From a virus: DNA of 20,613 bases. The translations under genes were made by a program, and so were the position numbers. The notes beneath the pieces were generated by a model. It did no database searches, was not told where the DNA came from, and was given only the letters and a program-made list of their open reading frames with translations. Shown in pieces: positions 4,306 through 15,487 of this stretch. The first letter of the stretch is position 1. Each line of letters begins with the position of its first letter. The DNA lies in IMG/VR virus record IMGVR_UViG_3300047552_000237, positions 1 through 20,613 of that record; one strand, given 5' to 3'.

Positions 4306-4434
4306 ACCGTTAGAATCGTTACAGCAATTAAAAATAATCTTTCTGGAAAAAAGAGGGTCTGGGTTCGAATCCCAGCGCTGAGTTGGTCTTCAGTGTGGTG
4401 TAATGGGAGCACGATAAAAGCGATTCTGTTATTG
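4306..4434 (+). ncRNA. end-paired element A: circularly permuted tRNA (Ser-GGA-like loop)
   Basis: P1 helix AGAATCG (4312-4318)/CGATTCT (4421-4427); motif TTACAGCAAT after the 5' strand; CAAT 4325-4328 can pair with ATTG 4431-4434. The insert is a complete tRNA in permuted order: anticodon arm TCTTT-CTGGAAA-AAAGA (4338-4354), T-arm CTGGG-TTCGAAT-CCCAG (4359-4375), acceptor 3' strand CGCTGAG (4376-4382), a 6-nt linker, acceptor 5' strand TTCAGTG (4389-4395, pairs over all 7 positions), D-arm GTG..CAC (4398-4412), then ATAAAAG and P1'. Rejoined across P1, the parts total about 71 nt, normal tRNA length. No CCA, and the short variable loop is unlike a true tRNA-Ser. Confidence 0.7.
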
Positions 4435-4508
4435 GTGATATGGCGTAGATGGATGCGCACTGGCTTCATAAGCCAAGGAGAGTGGATCGATACCACTTAT
4501 CACCACCA
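4435..4508 (+). tRNA. tRNA-Met(CAT) (or Ile2)
   Basis: GGTGATA/TATCACC acceptor, loop TTCATAA on CTGGC/GCCAA, CCA encoded, T-loop ATCGATA (A54). Elongator Met and lysidine-type Ile cannot be separated by eye. Confidence 0.88.
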
Positions 4509-4516
4509 AAGATTTT

Positions 4517-4608
4517 GGAAAGTAATGCAGCTGCGTTGGTGCGGCGACCAGCCTTGAAAACTGGGTTCTCAGAAATGGGATGGGGTTCGACTCCTCTGCT
4601 TTCCGCCA
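4517..4608 (+). tRNA. tRNA-Ser(TGA)
   Basis: GGAAAGT/GCTTTCC acceptor, loop CTTGAAA, long class-II variable arm (~TTCTCAGAAATGGGA), discriminator G, CCA encoded. Confidence 0.9.
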
Positions 4609-4688: not shown

Positions 4689-4763
4689 TTTTTAGGATGA
4701 GTTCTGCAACACACAAGAACACCAAACTTTTAATTTGACCTGTTCGTCAAAATCATCCTGTTG
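4689..4763 (+). ncRNA. end-paired element B (anticodon-loop hairpin, Lys-TTT-like)
   Basis: P1 AGGATGA (4694-4700)/TCATCCT (4753-4759), motif TTCTGCAAC, CAAC 4707-4710 pairing with GTTG 4760-4763. The insert is only a hairpin: GAACA/TGTTC outside and CAAA/TTTG inside, closing the 7-nt loop CTTTTAA, identical to the anticodon loop of the phage's own tRNA-Lys(TTT). There is no T-arm, D-arm or acceptor. It sits exactly between tRNA-Thr CCA and tRNA-Glu. Confidence 0.65.
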
Positions 4764-5277: not shown

Positions 5278-5386
5278 GTTTTAGGTTAGTTACAGCAAAA
5301 ATTAATGCACTGTCAATGGTTGACAATTTTCTTTCTACGAAAACGTTTGTGGGTTCGATCCCCACTGCAAAACAACTAGCCTGTTG
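5278..5386 (+). ncRNA. end-paired element C (Arg-TCT-like tRNA core)
   Basis: P1 AGGTTAG (5283-5289)/CTAGCCT (5376-5382, one G-U), motif TTACAGCAA, GTTG at 5383-5386. The insert holds a tRNA-like core in normal order: D-like hairpin GTC-AATGGTT-GAC, anticodon-type arm TTTTC-TTTCTAC-GAAAA (loop reads TCT), T-arm GTGGG-TTCGATC-CCCAC (5349-5365), then TGCAAAAC. The upstream acceptor strand TAATGCA matches at only five of seven positions and there is no CCA. A proper tRNA-Arg(TCT) exists at 7671. Confidence 0.6.
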
Positions 5387-5469: not shown

Positions 5470-5680
5470 AGTTTTAGGATACTTTCAGCAACATAAAATG
5501 CAATGAAAGCCTCGTGTCGGTGGTGCAAATCCACCCTCCTCCACTAAACTTATTCCTGTCATATTGGTCTATGACTTGAAGAGCGTTAGGACTTAGAGTA
5601 ACCAACTAAGGAGTTCGATGAATAAGTTTAGTGGAGGAGTAGCTCAGTTAGTAGAGCAGAGTTAAAAGCGTATCCTGTTG
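5470..5680 (+). ncRNA. end-paired element D: permuted tRNA with second tRNA-like domain
   Basis: P1 AGGATAC (5476-5482)/GTATCCT (5670-5676), motif TTTCAGCAAC, GTTG 5677-5680. Permuted module: T-arm GGTGG-TGCAAAT-CCACC (5519-5535), acceptor 3' strand CTCCTCC (5536-5542), acceptor 5' strand GGAGGAG (5633-5639, perfect pairing), TA, then a canonical D-arm GCTC..GAGC (5642-5657). The acceptor helix continues as a perfect 20-bp duplex (5536-5555 with 5620-5639) into an inner domain with D-like arm GTCAT-ATTGGTCT-ATGAC and hairpin CTTAG/CTAAG. This gives a dumbbell of two tRNA-like folds sharing one helix. I see no convincing anticodon arm. Confidence 0.7.
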
Positions 5681-5685
5681 ATTAT

Positions 5686-5780: not shown

Positions 5781-5897
5781 GCCGCTGTCGTCTAATGGTT
5801 AGGACACTTAAAAAGGTGAACCTGTCAAGGTTACGTTCAGCATATCAAATTCCATGTCAAGGAAGAGATCTAGGTTCGAATCCTAGCAGTGGCGCCA
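5781..5897 (+). tRNA. tRNA-Asp(GTC) with ~43-nt insertion between D-arm and anticodon arm
   Basis: 117 nt with CCA. GCCGCTG/CAGTGGC acceptor, D-arm 5790-5805, T-arm CTAGG-TTCGAAT-CCTAG. The arm with correct spacing to the T-arm is TTCC-ATGTCAA-GGAA (5850-5864; anticodon GTC). Between D-arm and this arm lie TTAAAAAG, AACCT (5819-5823), GTCA tetraloop, AGGTT (5828-5832), AC, then GTTCAGCATATCAAA. These are the same AAAAG, P1-type helix and UUCAGCA motif as elements A-I, but in unpermuted order with the helix closed by a tetraloop. Removing ~43 nt would leave a 75-nt tRNA with a 5-bp CTTCC/GGAAG anticodon stem. A normal tRNA-Asp exists at 8663. Confidence 0.7.
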
Positions 5898-5898
5898 A

Positions 5899-6000
5899 GT
5901 TTTAGGTTATTTGCAGCAAACAAAATTCATAGGTTCGACTCCTATATTACTCACCAAAATCCGAGTGATTGCATGGCGCAAACAAGATAACCTGTTGTTT
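5899..6000 (+). ncRNA. end-paired element E: permuted tRNA-like RNA with internal CCA
   Basis: P1 AGGTTAT (5904-5910)/ATAACCT (5987-5993), motif TTGCAGCAAAC, GTTGTTT after the 3' strand (AAAC/GTTT pairing possible). Insert order: T-arm ATAGG-TTCGACT-CCTAT (5929-5945), acceptor 3' strand ATTACTC (5946-5952), A73, CCA (5954-5956), six-nt linker, acceptor 5' strand GAGTGAT (5963-5969, all 7 pair with one G-U), small D-like hairpin TGC-ATGGC-GCA, AACAAG, P1'. There is no anticodon arm. The internal A-CCA followed by the 5' acceptor strand is the clearest sign of permutation. Confidence 0.7.
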
Positions 6001-6024: not shown

Positions 6025-6579
6025 ATGCCAAGTGTATTCTTAACAAGCGATACGCACTTTGGTCACGTTGGTGTGACGAAGTTCTTGCGTGAAGATGGTA
6101 CCAAGTTACGTCCATGGGACTCCGTTGAAGAAATGGATGAAGCCATGGTTAAGGCTTGGAACGAAACTGTAAAACCAACTGACAAGGTTTACCACTTAGG
6201 TGACGTTGTCATTAACCGTAAAGCATTAAGCATCTTACATCGTTTGAACGGTGATAAGGTCTTGATCAAAGGCAACCACGATATCTTCCGCTTAGAGGAA
6301 TACACTAAGCACTTCAGAGATATTCGTTCAAGCCACGTGATGAATGGAATCATCTTGACTCACATTCCTGTTCACACTTCACAGTTGTATCGTTTTGGTT
6401 GCAACATCCATGGTCACTTACACTCTAACAGAGTAATGACTGATGATGGTTTTGTTGACCCTCGTTACTTCTCTGTCTGCGTTGAACAAACTGATTTCAA
6501 GCCTATATTATTTGAAGACGTTATACAGCGTATCAAAGATCAAGGTGGAACAGTTGGATTCAAGAATGGTAACTATTAA
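6025..6579 (+). CDS. calcineurin-like metallophosphoesterase
   Basis: 184 residues from ATG 6025; GAAAGGG upstream supports this start over ATG 6010. All family metal motifs are present: SDTHFGH (D9, H11, H14), LGDVV, KGNHD, LTHIPVH and NIHGHLH. These build a di-metal phosphohydrolase active site. Small phage members act on nucleotides, nucleic-acid ends or phosphoproteins; the substrate cannot be told. The gene begins just downstream of the P1' strand and GTTG of element E, so the element forms its 5' leader. It is followed immediately by tRNA-Ser(GCT). Confidence 0.9.
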   Translation: MPSVFLTSDTHFGHVGVTKFLREDGTKLRPWDSVEEMDEAMVKAWNETVKPTDKVYHLGDVVINRKALSILHRLNGDKVLIKGNHDIFRLEEYTKHFRDIRSSHVMNGIILTHIPVHTSQLYRFGCNIHGHLHSNRVMTDDGFVDPRYFSVCVEQTDFKPILFEDVIQRIKDQGGTVGFKNGNY

Positions 6580-6580
6580 T

Positions 6581-6670
6581 GGAGAGTGGGCAGGATGGTA
6601 ATGCAGCGGTTTGCTAAACCGTAGATCTCAGGAATGAGGTCAGTGGGTTCGATTCCCACACTCTCCGCCA
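6581..6670 (+). tRNA. tRNA-Ser(GCT)
   Basis: GGAGAGT/ACTCTCC acceptor, loop TTGCTAA on CGGT/ACCG, class-II variable arm (GATCTCAGGAATGAGGTC), discriminator G, CCA encoded. Confidence 0.92.
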
Positions 6671-6680
6671 ATTGTAATGT

Positions 6681-6763
6681 AGAGTCGCTCTCTACCGCAG
6701 ACGTAAGCGAAATGCGTGACAGTCGAGGAGAGACCCGAGCCAAATTCAAAAGCAACCGACTCT
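6681..6763 (+). ncRNA. structured spacer RNA closed by a P1-like helix
   Basis: AGAGTCG (6681-6687) pairs with CGACTCT (6757-6763), matching the AGRNNNN/NNNNYCT pattern. It is preceded by AAAAGCAAC on the 3' side but lacks the TTYAGCAA motif and GTTG tail. CTCTC/GAGAG and CGCA/TGCG helices can form inside; GTAGAG/CTCTAC is an alternative hairpin at the 5' end. It may be a diverged member of the end-paired family. Confidence 0.4.
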
Positions 6764-6803
6764 GAAAATGCGATTTTAATAAATAGTTGCATAGGAGGGT
6801 TTT

Positions 6804-7286
6804 ATGGGTGCTAATCAATATTCTTACGGCAAGAAAATGTCTGACGAAACTAAGAAGAAGTTGTCGGATGCTAGTAAGAAACAAGTTTGGAGTGAAGAGC
6901 GAAAACGCTTACACTCTGAGAGAATGAAAAAAGTGGTCGCTTCTAAACCAGAGTCTTATTCTTCTGGTAATAGAGGCAGGGTTAAACGAATAGAGTATGA
7001 TGGTATCTCATTTCAAGGTAAATGGGAACTATACTTCTACCAATGGTGTAAGGCTAATGATGTTGATATAAAGAAGTGTAATGAATGGTTCGAGTATGAA
7101 TGGAATGGGGTGCGAAAGTATTTCCCAGATTTCTATCTACCAGAACATAATGTATATGTTGAAGTCAAAGGATATAAAACTGAAAGAGATGAGGCTAAAT
7201 GGTCTCAATTTCCGAAGAAGTTATTAGTCGTTGACAAGAAAGATATACCAAAACTTCTTGATAACACATATAAGTTGGGTCTATAG
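6804..7286 (+). CDS. free-standing homing-type endonuclease: NUMOD3 + PD-(D/E)XK
   Basis: 160 residues. Residues ~8-45 (GKKMSDETKKKLSDASKKQVWSEERKRLHSERMKKV) are NUMOD3-like DNA-binding helices as in intron and seg-type homing enzymes. Residues ~68-125 match a PD-(D/E)XK nuclease: FQGKWELYFYQWC, then P108-D109 in YFPDFYLPEH and E120-V-K122-G. This resembles phage homing nucleases that cut and spread into intergenic sites. Ribosome site AGGAGGG is strong. The TAG stop (7284-7286) lies inside tRNA-Met 7277-7351, so the gene is wedged between tRNAs, as expected for a mobile insertion in the array. Confidence 0.82.
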   Translation: MGANQYSYGKKMSDETKKKLSDASKKQVWSEERKRLHSERMKKVVASKPESYSSGNRGRVKRIEYDGISFQGKWELYFYQWCKANDVDIKKCNEWFEYEWNGVRKYFPDFYLPEHNVYVEVKGYKTERDEAKWSQFPKKLLVVDKKDIPKLLDNTYKLGL

Positions 7287-7756: not shown

Positions 7757-7785
7757 TTGACTTTAATTCAAGTTTGTAGTATAAT
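7757..7785 (+). promoter_or_regulatory. promoter (TTGACT/TATAAT)
   Basis: TTGACT 7757-7762, TATAAT 7780-7785, 17-nt spacer. The -35 is embedded in an inverted repeat ACTTGA/TCAAGT, a possible operator. It drives the structured RNA that follows. Confidence 0.75.
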
Positions 7786-7791
7786 TAATGT

Positions 7792-7920
7792 TGTTAAGTT
7801 AGTTCTTAAAGACCTTTCTAAGTCACTACGTGGAGTCGGGTGCATAAGGCAATTTTAGGGGAATCGCTGGAAGAGTGATTCGGTTAGAGTTGCGTTGGGA
7901 TAGTTAGGGGCAGACTCTAC
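7792..7920 (+). ncRNA. promoter-driven structured RNA, function unknown
   Basis: After a TTAAG/CTTAA leader hairpin, GTGGAGTC (7830-7837) pairs with GACTCTAC (7913-7920). Inside, GCAATTTTAG (7849-7858) pairs with TTAGAGTTGC (7884-7893, three G-U), enclosing GAATCGC-TGGAAGA-GTGATTC (7861-7881). This is a single long rod with a 7-nt terminal loop, with no ORF and no tRNA arms. The next gene is tRNA-Glu copy 2, so it could be a leader or an independent RNA. Confidence 0.5.
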
Positions 7921-7925
7921 AATTT

Positions 7926-8089: not shown

Positions 8090-8141
8090 GGTAAATGTTA
8101 TCTGCAGGTAGCATCCATGCTGGAGAGTAATTAACTTCAGG

Positions 8142-8223
8142 AACTCGTAGTCTTCTAATTTGGTAAGAAAGCCTCGTTATGGAGGTTAATGTTGGTTCGA
8201 TTCCATCCTACAATGAGTTTGCA
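8142..8223 (+). tRNA. degenerate tRNA-like gene, anticodon unclear
   Basis: Acceptor AACTCGT (8142-8148)/ATGAGTT (8213-8219), D-like arm TCTT-CTAATTTGGT-AAGA, arm CCTC-GTTATG-GAGG with a 6-nt loop, T-like TTGG-TTCGATT-CCAT followed by five extra bases, and GCA instead of CCA. No U8. It is probably a decayed tRNA or tRNA mimic. The upstream 8090-8141 contains AGCAT/ATGCT but no gene. Confidence 0.4.
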
Positions 8224-8230
8224 TAATTAG

Positions 8231-8472
8231 ATTTTATACGCATGACACTTCACTGTCAGCAAGAGAAAGTCACGCTACAAAGGTTTCTTCGAAGGACTGA
8301 TGTAGTAGAAGGGGATGGGTTCAACTCCCAACCGATCGGAAGATCGGGGCAGATTGGTTGCTAACTGGACAAGTATCCCAAGTGACGTACCGAGTCCTGG
8401 TCGACCTTGTATAAACAGGTGAATGGTATCAATAACGATGGTGATACAATGAGGTTGTCAGTCGTATAAAAT
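8231..8472 (+). ncRNA. large end-paired RNA J with permuted tRNA module and GNRA-capped acceptor
   Basis: Closed by ATTTTATACG (8231-8240)/CGTATAAAAT (8463-8472), with TGACA/TGTCA just inside. Inner helix TTCACTG (8249-8255)/CAATGAG (8447-8453) is followed by CAGCAA on the 5' side and GTTG on the 3' side, a diverged version of the P1 motif. Permuted module: CTACA/TGTAG arm, T-arm TGGG-TTCAACT-CCCA (8316-8330), CCGATC/GATCGG acceptor-like stem capped by GGAA (8332-8347), D-arm GCA-GATTGGT-TGC (8349-8361). Further hairpins follow (GGAC/GTCC; ACC.TGT/ACAGGT; GTATCA/TGATAC). It recalls the tRNA-like domain of YrlA-type bacterial Y RNAs. Confidence 0.6.
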
Positions 8473-8737: not shown

Positions 8738-8799
8738 GTTTTAGGATTCTTTCAGCAACTTTAAATCTTTTTGGAATAAAGAAAAAGCGAATCCTGTTG
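8738..8799 (+). ncRNA. end-paired element F (minimal, anticodon-type loop GGA)
   Basis: The smallest copy. P1 AGGATTC (8743-8749)/GAATCCT (8789-8795); TTTCAGCAAC follows the 5' strand; AAAAGC precedes the 3' strand; CAAC (8756-8759) can pair with GTTG (8796-8799). The insert is a 17-nt arm TCTTT-TTGGAAT-AAAGA, like the anticodon arm in element A. It lies in the leader of the gene at 8814. Confidence 0.65.
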
Positions 8800-9740: not shown

Positions 9741-9811
9741 GTTTTAGAATCGGTTCAGCAACACAAAAGCATCAAACTTGTAATTTGAAAACGCAAAAAA
9801 CGATTCTGTTG
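9741..9811 (+). ncRNA. end-paired element G (anticodon-type loop TGT)
   Basis: P1 AGAATCG (9746-9752)/CGATTCT (9801-9807), GTTCAGCAAC, and CAAC 9759-9762 with GTTG 9808-9811. The insert is a perfect 17-nt arm TCAAA-CTTGTAA-TTTGA (9772-9788), a tRNA-Thr(TGT)-type anticodon stem-loop, with no other tRNA part. It forms the leader of the gene at 9830. Confidence 0.65.
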
Positions 9812-12655: not shown

Positions 12656-13138
12656 ATGAGAAAACTAGACATTGACGAAGTTAAAGCGTTCATCGAAGCA
12701 CAAAGTCCCGAAACAAAAATCTACATTGGCGGTGACTCTGAACGATTCCTGATCGGAAATGACTGGTACGCAGATTATACACTTGCTGTTGTAGTTCACA
12801 TTGACGGAAAGCATGGAGCTAAAGTCTTTGGTGAAGTTCAAAGAGAACGTGACTGGGACCAAAAGAAAAACCGTCCACGTATGCGTTTGATGAACGAAGT
12901 TTACAAAATCGCAGAATTATACCAAAAGCTACACGATGTGTTGGAAGACCGTCAAGTAGAAATTCACTTGGACATTAACCCAAATGAAAAGTATGGTTCA
13001 AGCTGCGTTGTTCAAGAAGCTGTTGGTTACATTCGTGGTATGTGCAACGTTGTTCCTATGGTTAAGCCAAAGGCATTCGCTGCTTCTTACTGCGCCGACA
13101 GACTAAAACACATCATGAGCCACCAAAAGGCTGCATGA
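12656..13138 (+). CDS. YkuK/DUF458-like RNase H-fold protein
   Basis: 160 residues. It matches the YkuK (DUF458) family: YIGGDSERF near the start (first Asp of an RNase H-like core), then VEIHLDINPNEKYGSSCVVQEAVGYIRGM and VPMVKPKAFAASYCADRL. These are the family's DINP-x-x-KY-x-SS and VKP-x-x-x-AA-x-x-AD blocks. The fold suggests an Asp-dependent nuclease or nucleic-acid-binding role; activity is not established to my knowledge. It lies immediately upstream of two promoter-driven structured RNAs and the Ro60-like gene, so an RNA-related role is plausible. Confidence 0.85.
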   Translation: MRKLDIDEVKAFIEAQSPETKIYIGGDSERFLIGNDWYADYTLAVVVHIDGKHGAKVFGEVQRERDWDQKKNRPRMRLMNEVYKIAELYQKLHDVLEDRQVEIHLDINPNEKYGSSCVVQEAVGYIRGMCNVVPMVKPKAFAASYCADRLKHIMSHQKAA

Positions 13139-13147
13139 AAATAATAC

Positions 13148-13176
13148 TTGACTTTAATTCAGAAGTCAGGTATAAT
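13148..13176 (+). promoter_or_regulatory. promoter of structured RNA H (TTGACT/TATAAT)
   Basis: TTGACT 13148-13153, TATAAT 13171-13176, 17-nt spacer. Identical to promoter 13481-13509 over the whole -35 to -10 region. GACTT/AAGTC repeats flank the spacer. Confidence 0.85.
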
Positions 13177-13182
13177 TAATGT

Positions 13183-13475
13183 ATGAATTGGGATGAATAC
13201 AGCATAGTAAACTACTATGACTAAAGAGTAGCCCACGCACAGGAGGAAACATCGTAAGGTGTCAATTTTGTGGGCTAGGTTGGTAAAGACTATTGCATGC
13301 TCTTATGCCTTGTGAACCCTATTAGGATTCAGATAGTTACACCCGAATGTGTACCGAGTTGCCGTAACTTGTACGGATATGCCAGCGAACTGGACGATTC
13401 TCGTGGGGTTTACCGAAAGGGGCACGATGGTTTAAGCAACCAAAATTATCAACCCGATCATCCCGTTGTTTAAAT
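13183..13475 (+). ncRNA. structured RNA H, ~290 nt, end-paired
   Basis: P1 GGGATGA (13190-13196)/TCATCCC (13458-13464) lies 7 nt from the predicted 5' end. ATACAGCA follows the 5' strand and GTTG (13465-13468) follows the 3' strand; TAAAC may pair with GTTTA. Inside, many helices form: CATAGTA/TACTATG, TAGCCCAC/GTGGGCTA, ACTAT/ATAGT, GCAT/ATGC, ACAC/GTGT, CCAG-CGAA-CTGG, TCGTG/CACGA and GGTT/AACC. There is no ORF of note and no T-arm. Its own promoter makes it an independent RNA gene. Not recognised as RNase P, tmRNA or another family. Confidence 0.65.
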
Positions 13476-13480
13476 TTTAC

Positions 13481-13509
13481 TTGACTTTAATTCAGAAGTC
13501 AGGTATAAT
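13481..13509 (+). promoter_or_regulatory. promoter of RNA I and the DUF2828 gene (TTGACT/TATAAT)
   Basis: TTGACT 13481-13486, TATAAT 13504-13509, 17-nt spacer; predicted start ~13516. Confidence 0.85.
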
Positions 13510-13515
13510 TAATGT

Positions 13516-13701
13516 ATTGAGTAAGGTTAGGTTCAGCAAACACTCATAGCTAGGCAGAAATGCCACTACGACTGGTCGCTTTCAACCCGATGTATGCTGG
13601 AGCCTGTATGGGCTTTGAAGGTGTATGTCATATGGGCATGCGACGAAGTGAGTTTCGAGTTCTCACTTAAAATAAAAAGAAGGAAACTAACCTGTTGTTT
13701 G
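13516..13701 (+). ncRNA. end-paired structured RNA I, leader of the DUF2828 gene
   Basis: P1 AGGTTAG (13524-13530)/CTAACCT (13687-13693), GTTCAGCAAAC after the 5' strand, and CAAAC (13537-13541) pairing with GTTTG (13697-13701). Internal helices: GGCA-GAAA-TGCC, CGAC/GTCG, AGCC/GGCT and AGTGAG/CTCACT, the last enclosing a T-loop-like TTCGAGT. P1 is 8 nt from the predicted start. The RNA ends ~35 nt before the DUF2828 start codon, so it is either a processed RNA or a cis-regulatory leader of its putative protein partner. Confidence 0.65.
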
Positions 13702-13736
13702 ACTTAGGCTTCGTTGCCTGTAATTGGAGATGTAAT

Positions 13737-15173
13737 ATGAATACTTTTGTTTCAGCCGTTCAAAATCAAGAAGCACGCACTACTAACGGCATGCGTGCCC
13801 GTCAGTCTACTGCCAATGCGTGTGTAGACCTTTTCTTCAAAATCGGAGCTTCACGTGGTAAGGACATTACCAAGGACTTCGTTGCAGCTTATGTTGAGAA
13901 CCGTGAGATCGCTCTGCGTATCGCACAATGGGTTCGCGACGTTCGTGGTGGCGCAGGTGAACGTGAAATCTTCCGTCAAATCCTAAAGTACCTAGACAAG
14001 CACCACCCAACTGATGCAGCTTTGCTGTTGATGAAAGTACCAGAAATTGGTCGTTGGGATGACATCTTTGTTGTAGAAAACAAAGAGAACAAGTATAAGG
14101 CATTCGCCATGCTTGGTGACGCTCTGCGTGCTAAGAACGGTCTGGCTGCTAAGTGGACACCTCGCAAGGGTGATCTAGCTGTTGAGATCCGTAACTTCTT
14201 TGGCATGTCGCCAAAGTTCTATCGTAAGTCCTTGGTTGAATTGACTAAGGTTGTTGAACAAGACATGTGTGCAAAGAACTGGGACACAATCAACTTCAGC
14301 CATGTTCCATCTCTGGCTCACTCTCGTTACAAGAAGGCATTCTTCCGTAACACTCAAGAGTATGCCAAGTATGTTGCCGAACTGACTAAGGATCCAAAGG
14401 ATCGCACAGTTCAAGTCAAAATCAATGCAGGTGCGGTTTATCCATACGATGTGTTGAAGGGTGTTATCGGTACATACCGCAGCAACTTCAATGCAACTGA
14501 ATTGGGTGCGATGCAAGCGCAATGGGATGCTATGGAAAACTTTGTTGGTGACGCTAACGTGTTGCCACTGGTTGACGTATCAGGCTCTATGTCTTGCCGT
14601 GCTGGTGGTGCGAAGTCTAACTCCGCAACTACTTGTATGGATGTTGCAGTTTCTCTTGGTCTGTATATCGCAGACAAGAACAAGGGTAAGTTCAAGGATA
14701 CATTCCTGACTTTCTCTTCTTCTCCAGAACTGTTGCACTTGAAGGGTAACATTGTTCAGAAGTGCCAACAAATGGTTTCTTCTAACTGGGGTATGTCTAC
14801 TGACTTGGTTAAGGCGATGGAGAAAATCCTGAGCACTGCTAAGAATGGTAACGTGCCACAAGAAGAAATGCCAGAAATGTTGTTGATCATGTCTGACATG
14901 CAATTCAACCAATGCGCTCGTTTCGACGACTCCGCAATGCAAATGATTGCACGTAAGTTTGAAGCTGCAGGATACGAACTGCCAAAGATCGTGTTCTGGA
15001 ACCTAAACGCTGCGGACAATGTCCCAGTGAAGTACGATGCTTCTAACGTGGCATTGATCTCTGGCTTCAGCCCACAGATCATGGTATCTGTTCTGGGTGG
15101 TGATACTGAAAAGTTCACTCCAGAAGCTATCATGATGAAGGCTATCGGTGTAGACCGATATGCCCTTGCCTAA
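13737..15173 (+). CDS. DUF2828/vWA protein, Ro60(TROVE)-like architecture
   Basis: 478 residues from ATG 13737 with GGAGAT upstream. The N-terminal ~260 residues are helical (IAQWVRDVRGGAGEREIFRQILKYL; VPSLAHSRYKKAFFRNTQEYAKYV; INAGAVYPYDVLKGVIGTY). The C-terminal part is a von Willebrand A domain with a full MIDAS: D280-x-S282-x-S284, T355 and D387. Blocks such as LPLVDVSGSMS, WGMSTDLVKAM, MSDMQFNQ and KIVFWNLNA match DUF2828/DUF7788. Helical repeats plus vWA is the layout of Ro60/Rsr, the Y-RNA-binding protein. Sequence identity to TROVE proteins is not obvious, so the link is architectural. Structured RNAs flank the gene on both sides. Confidence 0.85.
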   Translation: MNTFVSAVQNQEARTTNGMRARQSTANACVDLFFKIGASRGKDITKDFVAAYVENREIALRIAQWVRDVRGGAGEREIFRQILKYLDKHHPTDAALLLMKVPEIGRWDDIFVVENKENKYKAFAMLGDALRAKNGLAAKWTPRKGDLAVEIRNFFGMSPKFYRKSLVELTKVVEQDMCAKNWDTINFSHVPSLAHSRYKKAFFRNTQEYAKYVAELTKDPKDRTVQVKINAGAVYPYDVLKGVIGTYRSNFNATELGAMQAQWDAMENFVGDANVLPLVDVSGSMSCRAGGAKSNSATTCMDVAVSLGLYIADKNKGKFKDTFLTFSSSPELLHLKGNIVQKCQQMVSSNWGMSTDLVKAMEKILSTAKNGNVPQEEMPEMLLIMSDMQFNQCARFDDSAMQMIARKFEAAGYELPKIVFWNLNAADNVPVKYDASNVALISGFSPQIMVSVLGGDTEKFTPEAIMMKAIGVDRYALA

Positions 15174-15200
15174 TACCTAGTCGCTTAGGGACGGGCGCAT

Positions 15201-15226
15201 TGTCTGGTGTGCGTAATCACCAGACA
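15201..15226 (+). other. 9-bp hairpin after the DUF2828 gene
   Basis: TGTCTGGTG (15201-15209)/CACCAGACA (15218-15226), 8-nt loop. No T-tract follows, so it is not a classical terminator; it may be a processing or 3'-stability hairpin. Confidence 0.5.
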
Positions 15227-15370
15227 CCATAATTCAATATACTTTTCGTCATACTAGCAGGCATAGCCAGCCGCAGCAAGACCTAGTGCGTTAAGGGAGT
15301 CATGACCCATACAAGAGAGAGGTAATGGTTACAGAAGGTGACATCTTCTGGGAGTGTATTGAATTATGGT
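15226..15370 (+). ncRNA. RNA L closed by 14-bp helix
   Basis: ACCATAATTCAATA (15226-15239) is perfectly complementary to TATTGAATTATGGT (15357-15370). Inside are CAGAAG-GTGACAT-CTTCTG and a CAGCAAGACC segment. There is no ORF. It is one of two end-paired RNAs directly downstream of the Ro60-like gene. Confidence 0.5.
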
Positions 15371-15371
15371 A

Positions 15372-15482
15372 ACCATATAGCAGCACACTGAGCTTGGAAG
15401 TCGTACTCCGAGTTGTTTCAGATAAAAATAGTTTGATCTTGTTAGCATGATCAAAATAATTGGCAGTGTGTTCCTATATGGT
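15372..15482 (+). ncRNA. RNA M closed by 9-bp + 7-bp helices
   Basis: ACCATATAG (15372-15380)/CTATATGGT (15474-15482) and CACACTG (15384-15390)/CAGTGTG (15464-15470) form a long terminal stem. Inside are CTTGGA/TCCGAG and TTTGATC/GATCAAA hairpins. The architecture (end stem plus two internal hairpins) is Y-RNA-like. It lies just before tRNA-Gly(TCC). Confidence 0.5.
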
Positions 15483-15487
15483 ATTAT

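Follow-up and report, generated by a model that had tools for sequence, protein, structure and literature searches.

A Ro60-like DUF2828 protein and its tRNA-mimicking RNAs in phages and bacteria: a candidate Y-RNA-like ribonucleoprotein

Broken tRNAs (tRNA halves) elicit a response of the Salmonella rsr-yrlBA-rtcBA operon, and YrlA has been proposed to act there as a competitive inhibitor of anticodon nuclease (PMC7790460). In the Listeria phage CKA15, a DUF2828 protein whose best HHpred match is Rsr was found in purified virions, and its gene is no more than 2 kb away from the three unannotated regions with the highest transcription; an Rsr protein with ‘putative Y RNAs’ was suggested, and no RNA structure, motif or family was named (PMC12282133). 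The Class I RNAs, which have been reported to be restricted to dictyostelids and connected with how multicellularity arose in this group, start with AAG, feature an invariant G-C pair and an 11-nt motif, and end in CUGU; their known partner is the RRM protein Rnp1A, and no Ro60-like partner is reported (PMC7919456). Here we analyze a viral DNA stretch of 20,613 nt (IMG/VR record IMGVR_UViG_3300047552_000237, positions 1 to 20,613; hereafter the window), which encodes an orthologue of the CKA15 protein (DUF2828 plus DUF7788/vWA; 13737..15173, + strand, 478 aa plus stop codon) and nine RNA elements with one common core, of which H and I lie directly upstream of the gene and A–G across a tRNA array. 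A sequence-only reading of this locus had proposed that the protein is Ro60-like, that RNAs H and I precede it and RNAs L and M follow it, that copies of the same end stem, several with permuted tRNA mimics, lie throughout the tRNA array, and that the binding site on these RNAs would be new. Our analysis indicates that the system is real, widespread and largely undescribed, and that it is a variant of the Ro60–Y RNA theme that is unexpectedly connected to an RNA class so far known from amoebae only.

The shared core consists, in order, of AG and 5–6 further stem bases, approximately 3 nt (UU/UA-rich), CAGCAA, an insert of 20–350 nt, the complementary stem, which ends in CU (or CC, CA), and GU(U)G, with an end stem of 6–7 bp. 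A strict search for this pattern in 86 sequences (the window and 85 DUF2828 loci) yielded 282 matches on the DUF2828 strand; the opposite strand gave 13, and controls with reversed or complemented sequence gave 6. In an alignment of 40 cores from distant phages, whose members were selected for pairing, 99.6% of stem cells pair versus 32–44% when the strands are slid, and the stem features 115 double changes with a covariation score of 1.10 versus at most 0.19 when slid. Because the aligned sequences had been picked for pairing, we regard the core counts relative to the controls as the stronger evidence.

The core adjoins DUF2828 in phages of Listeria, Mycobacterium, Enterococcus, Campylobacter, Fusobacterium and Staphylococcus, as well as in Vibrio, Aeromonas, Sinorhizobium, Synechococcus and Felix-O1 group phages; three tandem cores lie directly upstream of the gene in Listeria phages. 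Bacterial and archaeal loci chosen on the protein alone contain the core, here a stem of at least 7 bp flanking CAGCAA, in 67 of 80 cases; the DUF2828 strand carries 160 matches, compared with 16 on the opposite strand and 3 and 4 for the controls. When 58 bacterial and archaeal loci (536 kb) were searched with R2, a covariance model built from phage elements, 32 matches reached E<=0.01, all of them on the DUF2828 strand. These loci served for the blind tests because the R2 training set overlaps the tested phage genomes; in the latter, under strict filters, R2 found elements in 9/14 phages with DUF2828, missing elements with long inserts, and in 0/6 phages without the gene.

Searches that start from the RNA point the same way. 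An exact DNA pattern of the core retrieved 53 viral contigs, and DUF2828 is encoded in 18/20 of those of at least 50 kb, compared with a baseline of 1.3% of phage records. Sixteen contigs were retrieved by a more relaxed pattern that fixes just four base pairs; three further bases pair in four of them, which are exactly the four with DUF2828, and the gene occurs in 0/12 of the others, a split that by our own arithmetic has a chance of 1 in 1820. The reversed core pattern matched two contigs, and DUF2828 is found in neither. The co-occurrence check suggested alongside the sequence-only reading is thus passed from the protein side and from the RNA side alike, and a partnership between the RNA core and DUF2828 is strongly supported.

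DUF2828 is described in Pfam as a domain of eukaryotes and viruses. It is carried by 681/50,697 phage records and, according to a motif scan, by 466 bacterial or archaeal stretches. The window protein matches DUF7788, which corresponds to the vWA part (E 9e-47), DUF2828 (E 3e-25) and PHROG 850, ‘RNA-binding protein’ (E 5e-138), and its vWA metal site (DxSxS...T...D) is intact, with no variation at D280, S282, S284, T355 and D387 among 31 sequences; NCBIfam, PADLOC and a phmmer search of the PDB gave no match. An AlphaFold2 model (predicted local distance difference test score, pLDDT, 77), made from the window and IMG/VR rows only, retrieved Ro60 or Rsr at all of ranks 1–7 when compared with the PDB using Foldseek. 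A structural aligner placed it closest to Ro60 of the Thermus phage phiLo (PDB 9kop and 9l5y, Z 17.5 and 15.3; 4.3 Å over 390 residues for the former), with Z scores of 14.2 for human Ro60, 12.2 for D. radiodurans Rsr and at most 9.9 for vWA-only chains. Identity to Ro60/Rsr over the structural alignments is 13–16%. The predicted fold is a helical-repeat ring closed by the vWA domain, as in Ro60/Rsr (TROVE) proteins, and on the strength of this model the protein is Ro60-like, in agreement with the earlier proposal. Campylobacter phage CPX additionally carries a second, partial copy of the DUF2828 N-terminus (95530-96015; 33% identity over residues 45–205), far from its full gene.

The inserts within the core are frequently tRNA mimics. 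Anticodon stem-loops, absent from the sequence-only reading, make up many of the short inserts: a hairpin with a 7-nt loop, U33 and a purine at position 37 is present in 49/85 distinct short inserts versus 4.0 (maximum 9) in 200 dinucleotide shuffles, and in 32/65 versus 3.0 once redundancy is removed. Frequent loops include CTTGTAA (Thr UGU), CTGTTAA (Asn), CTGGAAA (Ser), CTTTTAA (Lys) and CTGCAAA (Cys). Position 36 is A or U, followed by A37, in nearly all loops, and UAA is the commonest triplet at 36–38 in the non-redundant set (14 cases), whereas shuffles favor AAA. Among the long inserts, 58/146 contain a T-arm (0.8 in shuffles) and 26/146 a full permuted tRNA (0 in 40 shuffles), which consists of a T-arm, a 7-bp acceptor stem usually capped by 2–7 nt, and a D-arm; the permuted mimics described earlier are therefore borne out. 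The bacterial inserts likewise exceed their shuffles in T-arms (31 versus 0.5), permuted tRNAs (7 versus 0) and anticodon arms (42 versus 7.8). Outside any recognized core, a region between tRNA genes of phage CPX (L090, ~4330-4490) features a T-arm-like hairpin and other tRNA-like pieces in permuted arrangement.

At gathering thresholds, Rfam reports only tRNAs in the window. The element family has two sub-threshold near matches, RF02553 YrlA and RF01414 Dicty_Class_I_RNA, and in an unbiased scan of the bacterial loci against Rfam no family other than these two and tRNA fell below E ~0.05, so this prokaryotic RNA family appears to be undescribed. The YrlA model aligns over its full length to permuted inserts with 40.0, 39.8 and 41.6 bits (gathering score 69), while the end stem of the elements (P1) aligns poorly to P1 of YrlA and the conserved handle is of the CAGCAA type. 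RF01414 reaches 28.4 bits in the window, where element F is its best match, 31.8 bits in a Vibrio phage and 32.4 bits in a Woesearchaeota contig, relative to a gathering cut-off of 41.5.

Comparison with the hallmarks of Class I RNA makes this second resemblance more specific. The elements share the 6-bp end stem with an invariant first G-C pair and compensatory change, the first pair being demanded by the strict search and found in 32/40 of a wider set. They also share the 11-nt motif (CCUUACAGCAA; U3, C6, C9, A10 and A11 near invariant), with U in 95% at the matching place, where CAGCAA was the search seed and the Rfam alignment was seed-free. The CUGU 3′ end is present in the window and in related phages, with the variants CUGG in Felix-type phages and CUUG in Staphylococcus and Clostridia. 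The elements thus show the features by which PMC7919456 defines the class, the AAG start among them, and fall short only in the score. As dictyostelid Class I RNA has this very layout, the handle is new only in part, and the earlier expectation of a novel binding site has to be revised. RF01414 proved too noisy to detect elements on its own in whole phage genomes, with a chance-level match of 24 bits in T4, a phage without DUF2828; we accordingly take it as an indication of resemblance only.

The Class I likeness could reflect chance or convergence on a short motif, in which case the prokaryotic RNAs would form a separate Y-RNA-like family. The scores below the cut-off and the T4 match are consistent with this explanation, to which we give somewhat less than even odds, since several features coincide (5′ AG with an invariant G-C, a 6–7 bp stem, UUxCAGCAA, a variable insert and CUGU), the RF01414 match preceded any motif selection, and RF01414 matches in DUF2828 phages mostly land on the elements. 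Common descent with the dictyostelid RNA is plausible from these sequence features. A bolder and more tentative proposal, which we consider possible with the balance leaning against it, is that DUF2828 proteins and Class-I-type RNAs constitute one ancient ribonucleoprotein family that extends from phages to bacteria to social amoebae and displays tRNA parts in modular fashion. A fixed handle would then present interchangeable tRNA parts that decoy or recruit enzymes that cut, modify or repair tRNAs, and the eukaryotic branch of this family would be represented by the Class I RNAs of amoebae, which have been linked to multicellular development. The occurrence of Class I RNA in phages and bacteria, if true, would overturn the claim that it is confined to dictyostelids and predicts a Ro60-like partner in amoebae.

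In bacteria, the genomic setting connects the system to RNA repair. Of 56 bacterial loci, 28 encode an RtcB homologue on the DUF2828 strand, and in 23 of these the homologue follows DUF2828 at a distance of at most 100 nt. Such bacterial relatives combine a Ro60-like protein, Y-like RNAs and RtcB in one transcription unit. WYL-domain regulators and RlaP also recur near bacterial DUF2828. In Clostridia loci (L193-L207; L198, L199, L208), WYL-domain proteins are encoded just upstream of the RNA arrays and could be regulators of the unit.

The reading that we favor, with a probability of roughly 0.6, is a divergent Ro60–Y-RNA-like ribonucleoprotein in which DUF2828 and tRNA-mimic RNAs with a shared handle function in a tRNA damage response as tethers or decoys. 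The helical-repeat ring and vWA domain of DUF2828 would grip the common handle (end stem, CAGCAA and UGU(U)) as Ro60 grips Y RNA, and each RNA would show its own module, which could be a lone anticodon stem-loop, a capped permuted tRNA, or a larger module as in H and I. The tRNA-like modules would face outward and engage tRNA-acting enzymes. As tethers, they might resemble YrlA and Y RNAs in connecting the Ro60-like chaperone to an enzyme, which would be RtcB in bacteria and an RNA ligase in phages; as decoys, the uncharged modules might occupy host anticodon nucleases or tRNA-modifying (position-37) enzymes. We infer that DUF2828 binds the handle, that the particle has a role in tRNA repair or protection, and that each RNA copy is expressed; scaffold and decoy functions seem about equally likely.

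A related explanation is that the RNAs serve purely as decoys that soak up anticodon nucleases (PrrC-, VapC- or PARIS-like) and thereby shield phage and host tRNAs, with DUF2828 merely stabilizing and displaying them. The excess of anticodon stem-loops with U33 and A37 over shuffles, the capped acceptor stems, which are not chargeable, the many different anticodons within one genome, and the same role put forward for YrlA (PMC7790460) all suit such a function. It is a poor fit to the large non-tRNA inserts of H and I and to the permuted tRNA of element E, which lacks an anticodon arm, and the bacterial RtcB linkage favors repair equally; we therefore consider an exclusively decoy role unlikely.

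Cis-acting autoregulation, in which DUF2828 would bind the core to control its mRNA and neighboring transcripts, would account for the frequent presence of a same-strand core copy immediately before DUF2828 and for a core-like element in Vibrio phage R10Z (L083 19965-20005) that overlaps the DUF2828 start codon. Most copies, however, lie either kilobases away within tRNA arrays or, as in Mycobacterium and Staphylococcus, behind the gene; H and I are each preceded by a strong promoter, and autoregulation would not need tRNA-mimic inserts, which makes this explanation very improbable. Least credible of all is that the elements are permuted tRNA genes, precursors matured to working tRNAs by P1 ligation and opening of the acceptor end: the permuted order of T-arm, acceptor and D-arm, the ACCA after the acceptor strand in element E and the linkage to the RNA ligase RtcB in bacteria invite this idea, but most acceptor loops of 2–7 nt would not accommodate CCA, many elements hold an anticodon arm only, and the most conserved part is the handle, which has no obvious splice structure.

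Several observations weigh against the Ro60–Y-RNA-like reading. On the protein side, a TROVE match in Pfam is found in 0/31 relatives, compared with DUF2828 and DUF7788 in 31/31, for which reason we call the protein Ro60-like and place it outside the TROVE family by sequence; the DUF2828 profile reaches the phiLo TROVE protein at E 0.045 only, over 51 residues, which is a weak profile link to Ro60. Two phages with DUF2828, Erwinia Kaldavass and Staphylococcus Alsa_2, have no convincing element near the gene, and two large core-bearing IMG/VR contigs (L138 and L147; 166 and 141 kb) were found without DUF2828; these contigs may be incomplete or may use another partner. RtcB was not found in the phage window, the inserts of H and I show no tRNA likeness, and anticodon identities vary among elements, so that no single nuclease target stands out.

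The promoters and RNA elements A–I described next lie on the + strand, like the protein gene. In RNA element H (13190..13469), for which homologues were aligned and a fold was computed, the core stem is GGGATGA/TCATCCC, the motif CAGCA and the insert ~250 nt long; the element is preceded by a sigma-70 promoter (13148..13176; TTGACT-17-TATAAT, 11/12 matches). Because this promoter precedes RNA H, position 13183, at which the stretch originally singled out begins, fits a transcription start. A second sigma-70 promoter (13481..13509; 11/12 matches) precedes RNA element I (13524..13697; AGGTTAG/CTAACCT, CAGCAA, insert ~147 nt; alignment and covariation), which ends 40 nt upstream of the DUF2828 protein start. 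An interpretation of the elements as intrinsic terminators was dropped, as no terminator-like site was found in 13000-13760.

In the tRNA array, element A (4312..4432) combines the P1 handle with a complete permuted tRNA mimic, and its minimum-energy fold comprises P1 and four arms: an anticodon-arm-like hairpin (4339..4357; loop CTGGAAA, Ser GGA), a T-arm (4359..4375; CTGGG TTCGAAT CCCAG), a 7-bp acceptor stem closed by a 6-nt loop, with the free CCA end absent (4376..4395), and a D-arm (4398..4412). Element B (4694..4763) has the stem AGGATGA/TCATCCT and a degenerate CTGCAA motif (R2 E 5e-4); an anticodon arm with the loop CTTTTAA (Lys UUU) is possible in its insert and is absent from the minimum-energy fold. 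The insert of element C (5283..5386) contains a T-arm-like hairpin, and that of element D (5476..5681), which has a homologue in L032, is permuted tRNA-like with a 20-bp extension of the acceptor stem. Element E (5904..5998; R2 E 1.9e-6) carries a T-arm, a 7-bp stem whose loop starts with ACCA, and a short D-arm. Element F (8743..8799; R2 E 1.2e-8) is the smallest copy at 57 nt, and element G (9746..9811; R2 E 5e-6) contains the anticodon stem-loop TCAAA-CTTGTAA-TTTGA (Thr UGU). The proposed RNAs upstream of the gene and the end-stem copies through the array were thus recovered, H and I each behind its own promoter. The proposed downstream RNAs L and M were not, as no core match was found in 15174-15487; the first 50–75 nt past the DUF2828 stop codon are conserved in relatives, and RNA M has just a loose CAGCA-type resemblance to the core.

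A probable tRNA-Ser (TGA anticodon) at 4517-4604 of the window was missed by ARAGORN and gives only a sub-threshold tRNA-Sec match in Rfam, and a 114-nt tRNA at 5781-5894 (Rfam 45 bits; not in ARAGORN) has an apparent insertion in the anticodon region. The non-coding stretches 7780-7925, preceded by a promoter-like TTGACT...TATAAT, and 8100-8460 look structured, match no Rfam family and were not placed in the core family.

These results assign to DUF2828, a ‘domain of unknown function’, a probable fold, partner RNA and functional context, and they point to a possible overlooked machine for tRNA protection or repair in many phages and bacteria. A Ro60-like particle with anticodon stem-loops would also make the shielding of tRNAs from anticodon nucleases by Y RNAs directly testable in a phage.

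Among described systems, CKA15 shares the protein family of the window, and in a related Listeria phage, cka16 (L086), we identified three core-bearing elements. The cka16 genome also has a ~500-nt non-coding stretch without an Rfam match behind a TTGACA/TATAGT promoter (~6455-7030), which would equal CKA15 26,236-26,727, one of its most transcribed regions, if the coordinates agree. The window protein resembles Ro60/Rsr in its predicted full-length helical-repeat and vWA fold, intact metal-site residues and adjacent small RNAs, but belongs to Pfam DUF2828/DUF7788 rather than TROVE and is accompanied by a different RNA handle. The permuted inserts follow YrlA in the order of T-arm, capped acceptor stem and D-arm, whereas the elements appear to have the CAGCAA handle in place of the YrlA end stem, often add an anticodon arm or carry an anticodon arm only, and occur in many copies per genome. 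Bacterial DUF2828 loci parallel the Salmonella rsr-yrlBA-rtcBA operon in uniting a Ro60-like protein, tRNA-mimic RNAs and RtcB, with the differences that DUF2828 replaces Rsr, the RNA handle is another, the neighbors are of WYL type, and no RtcB was found near the phage versions. Dictyostelid Class I RNA genes have a DUSE promoter ~60 nt upstream, whereas H and I have sigma-70 promoters; the two groups of RNAs have in common an AG/G stem start, UUxCAGCAA beside the 5′ strand, a variable middle, a CUGU end, and many gene copies, the short ones of ~60 nt.

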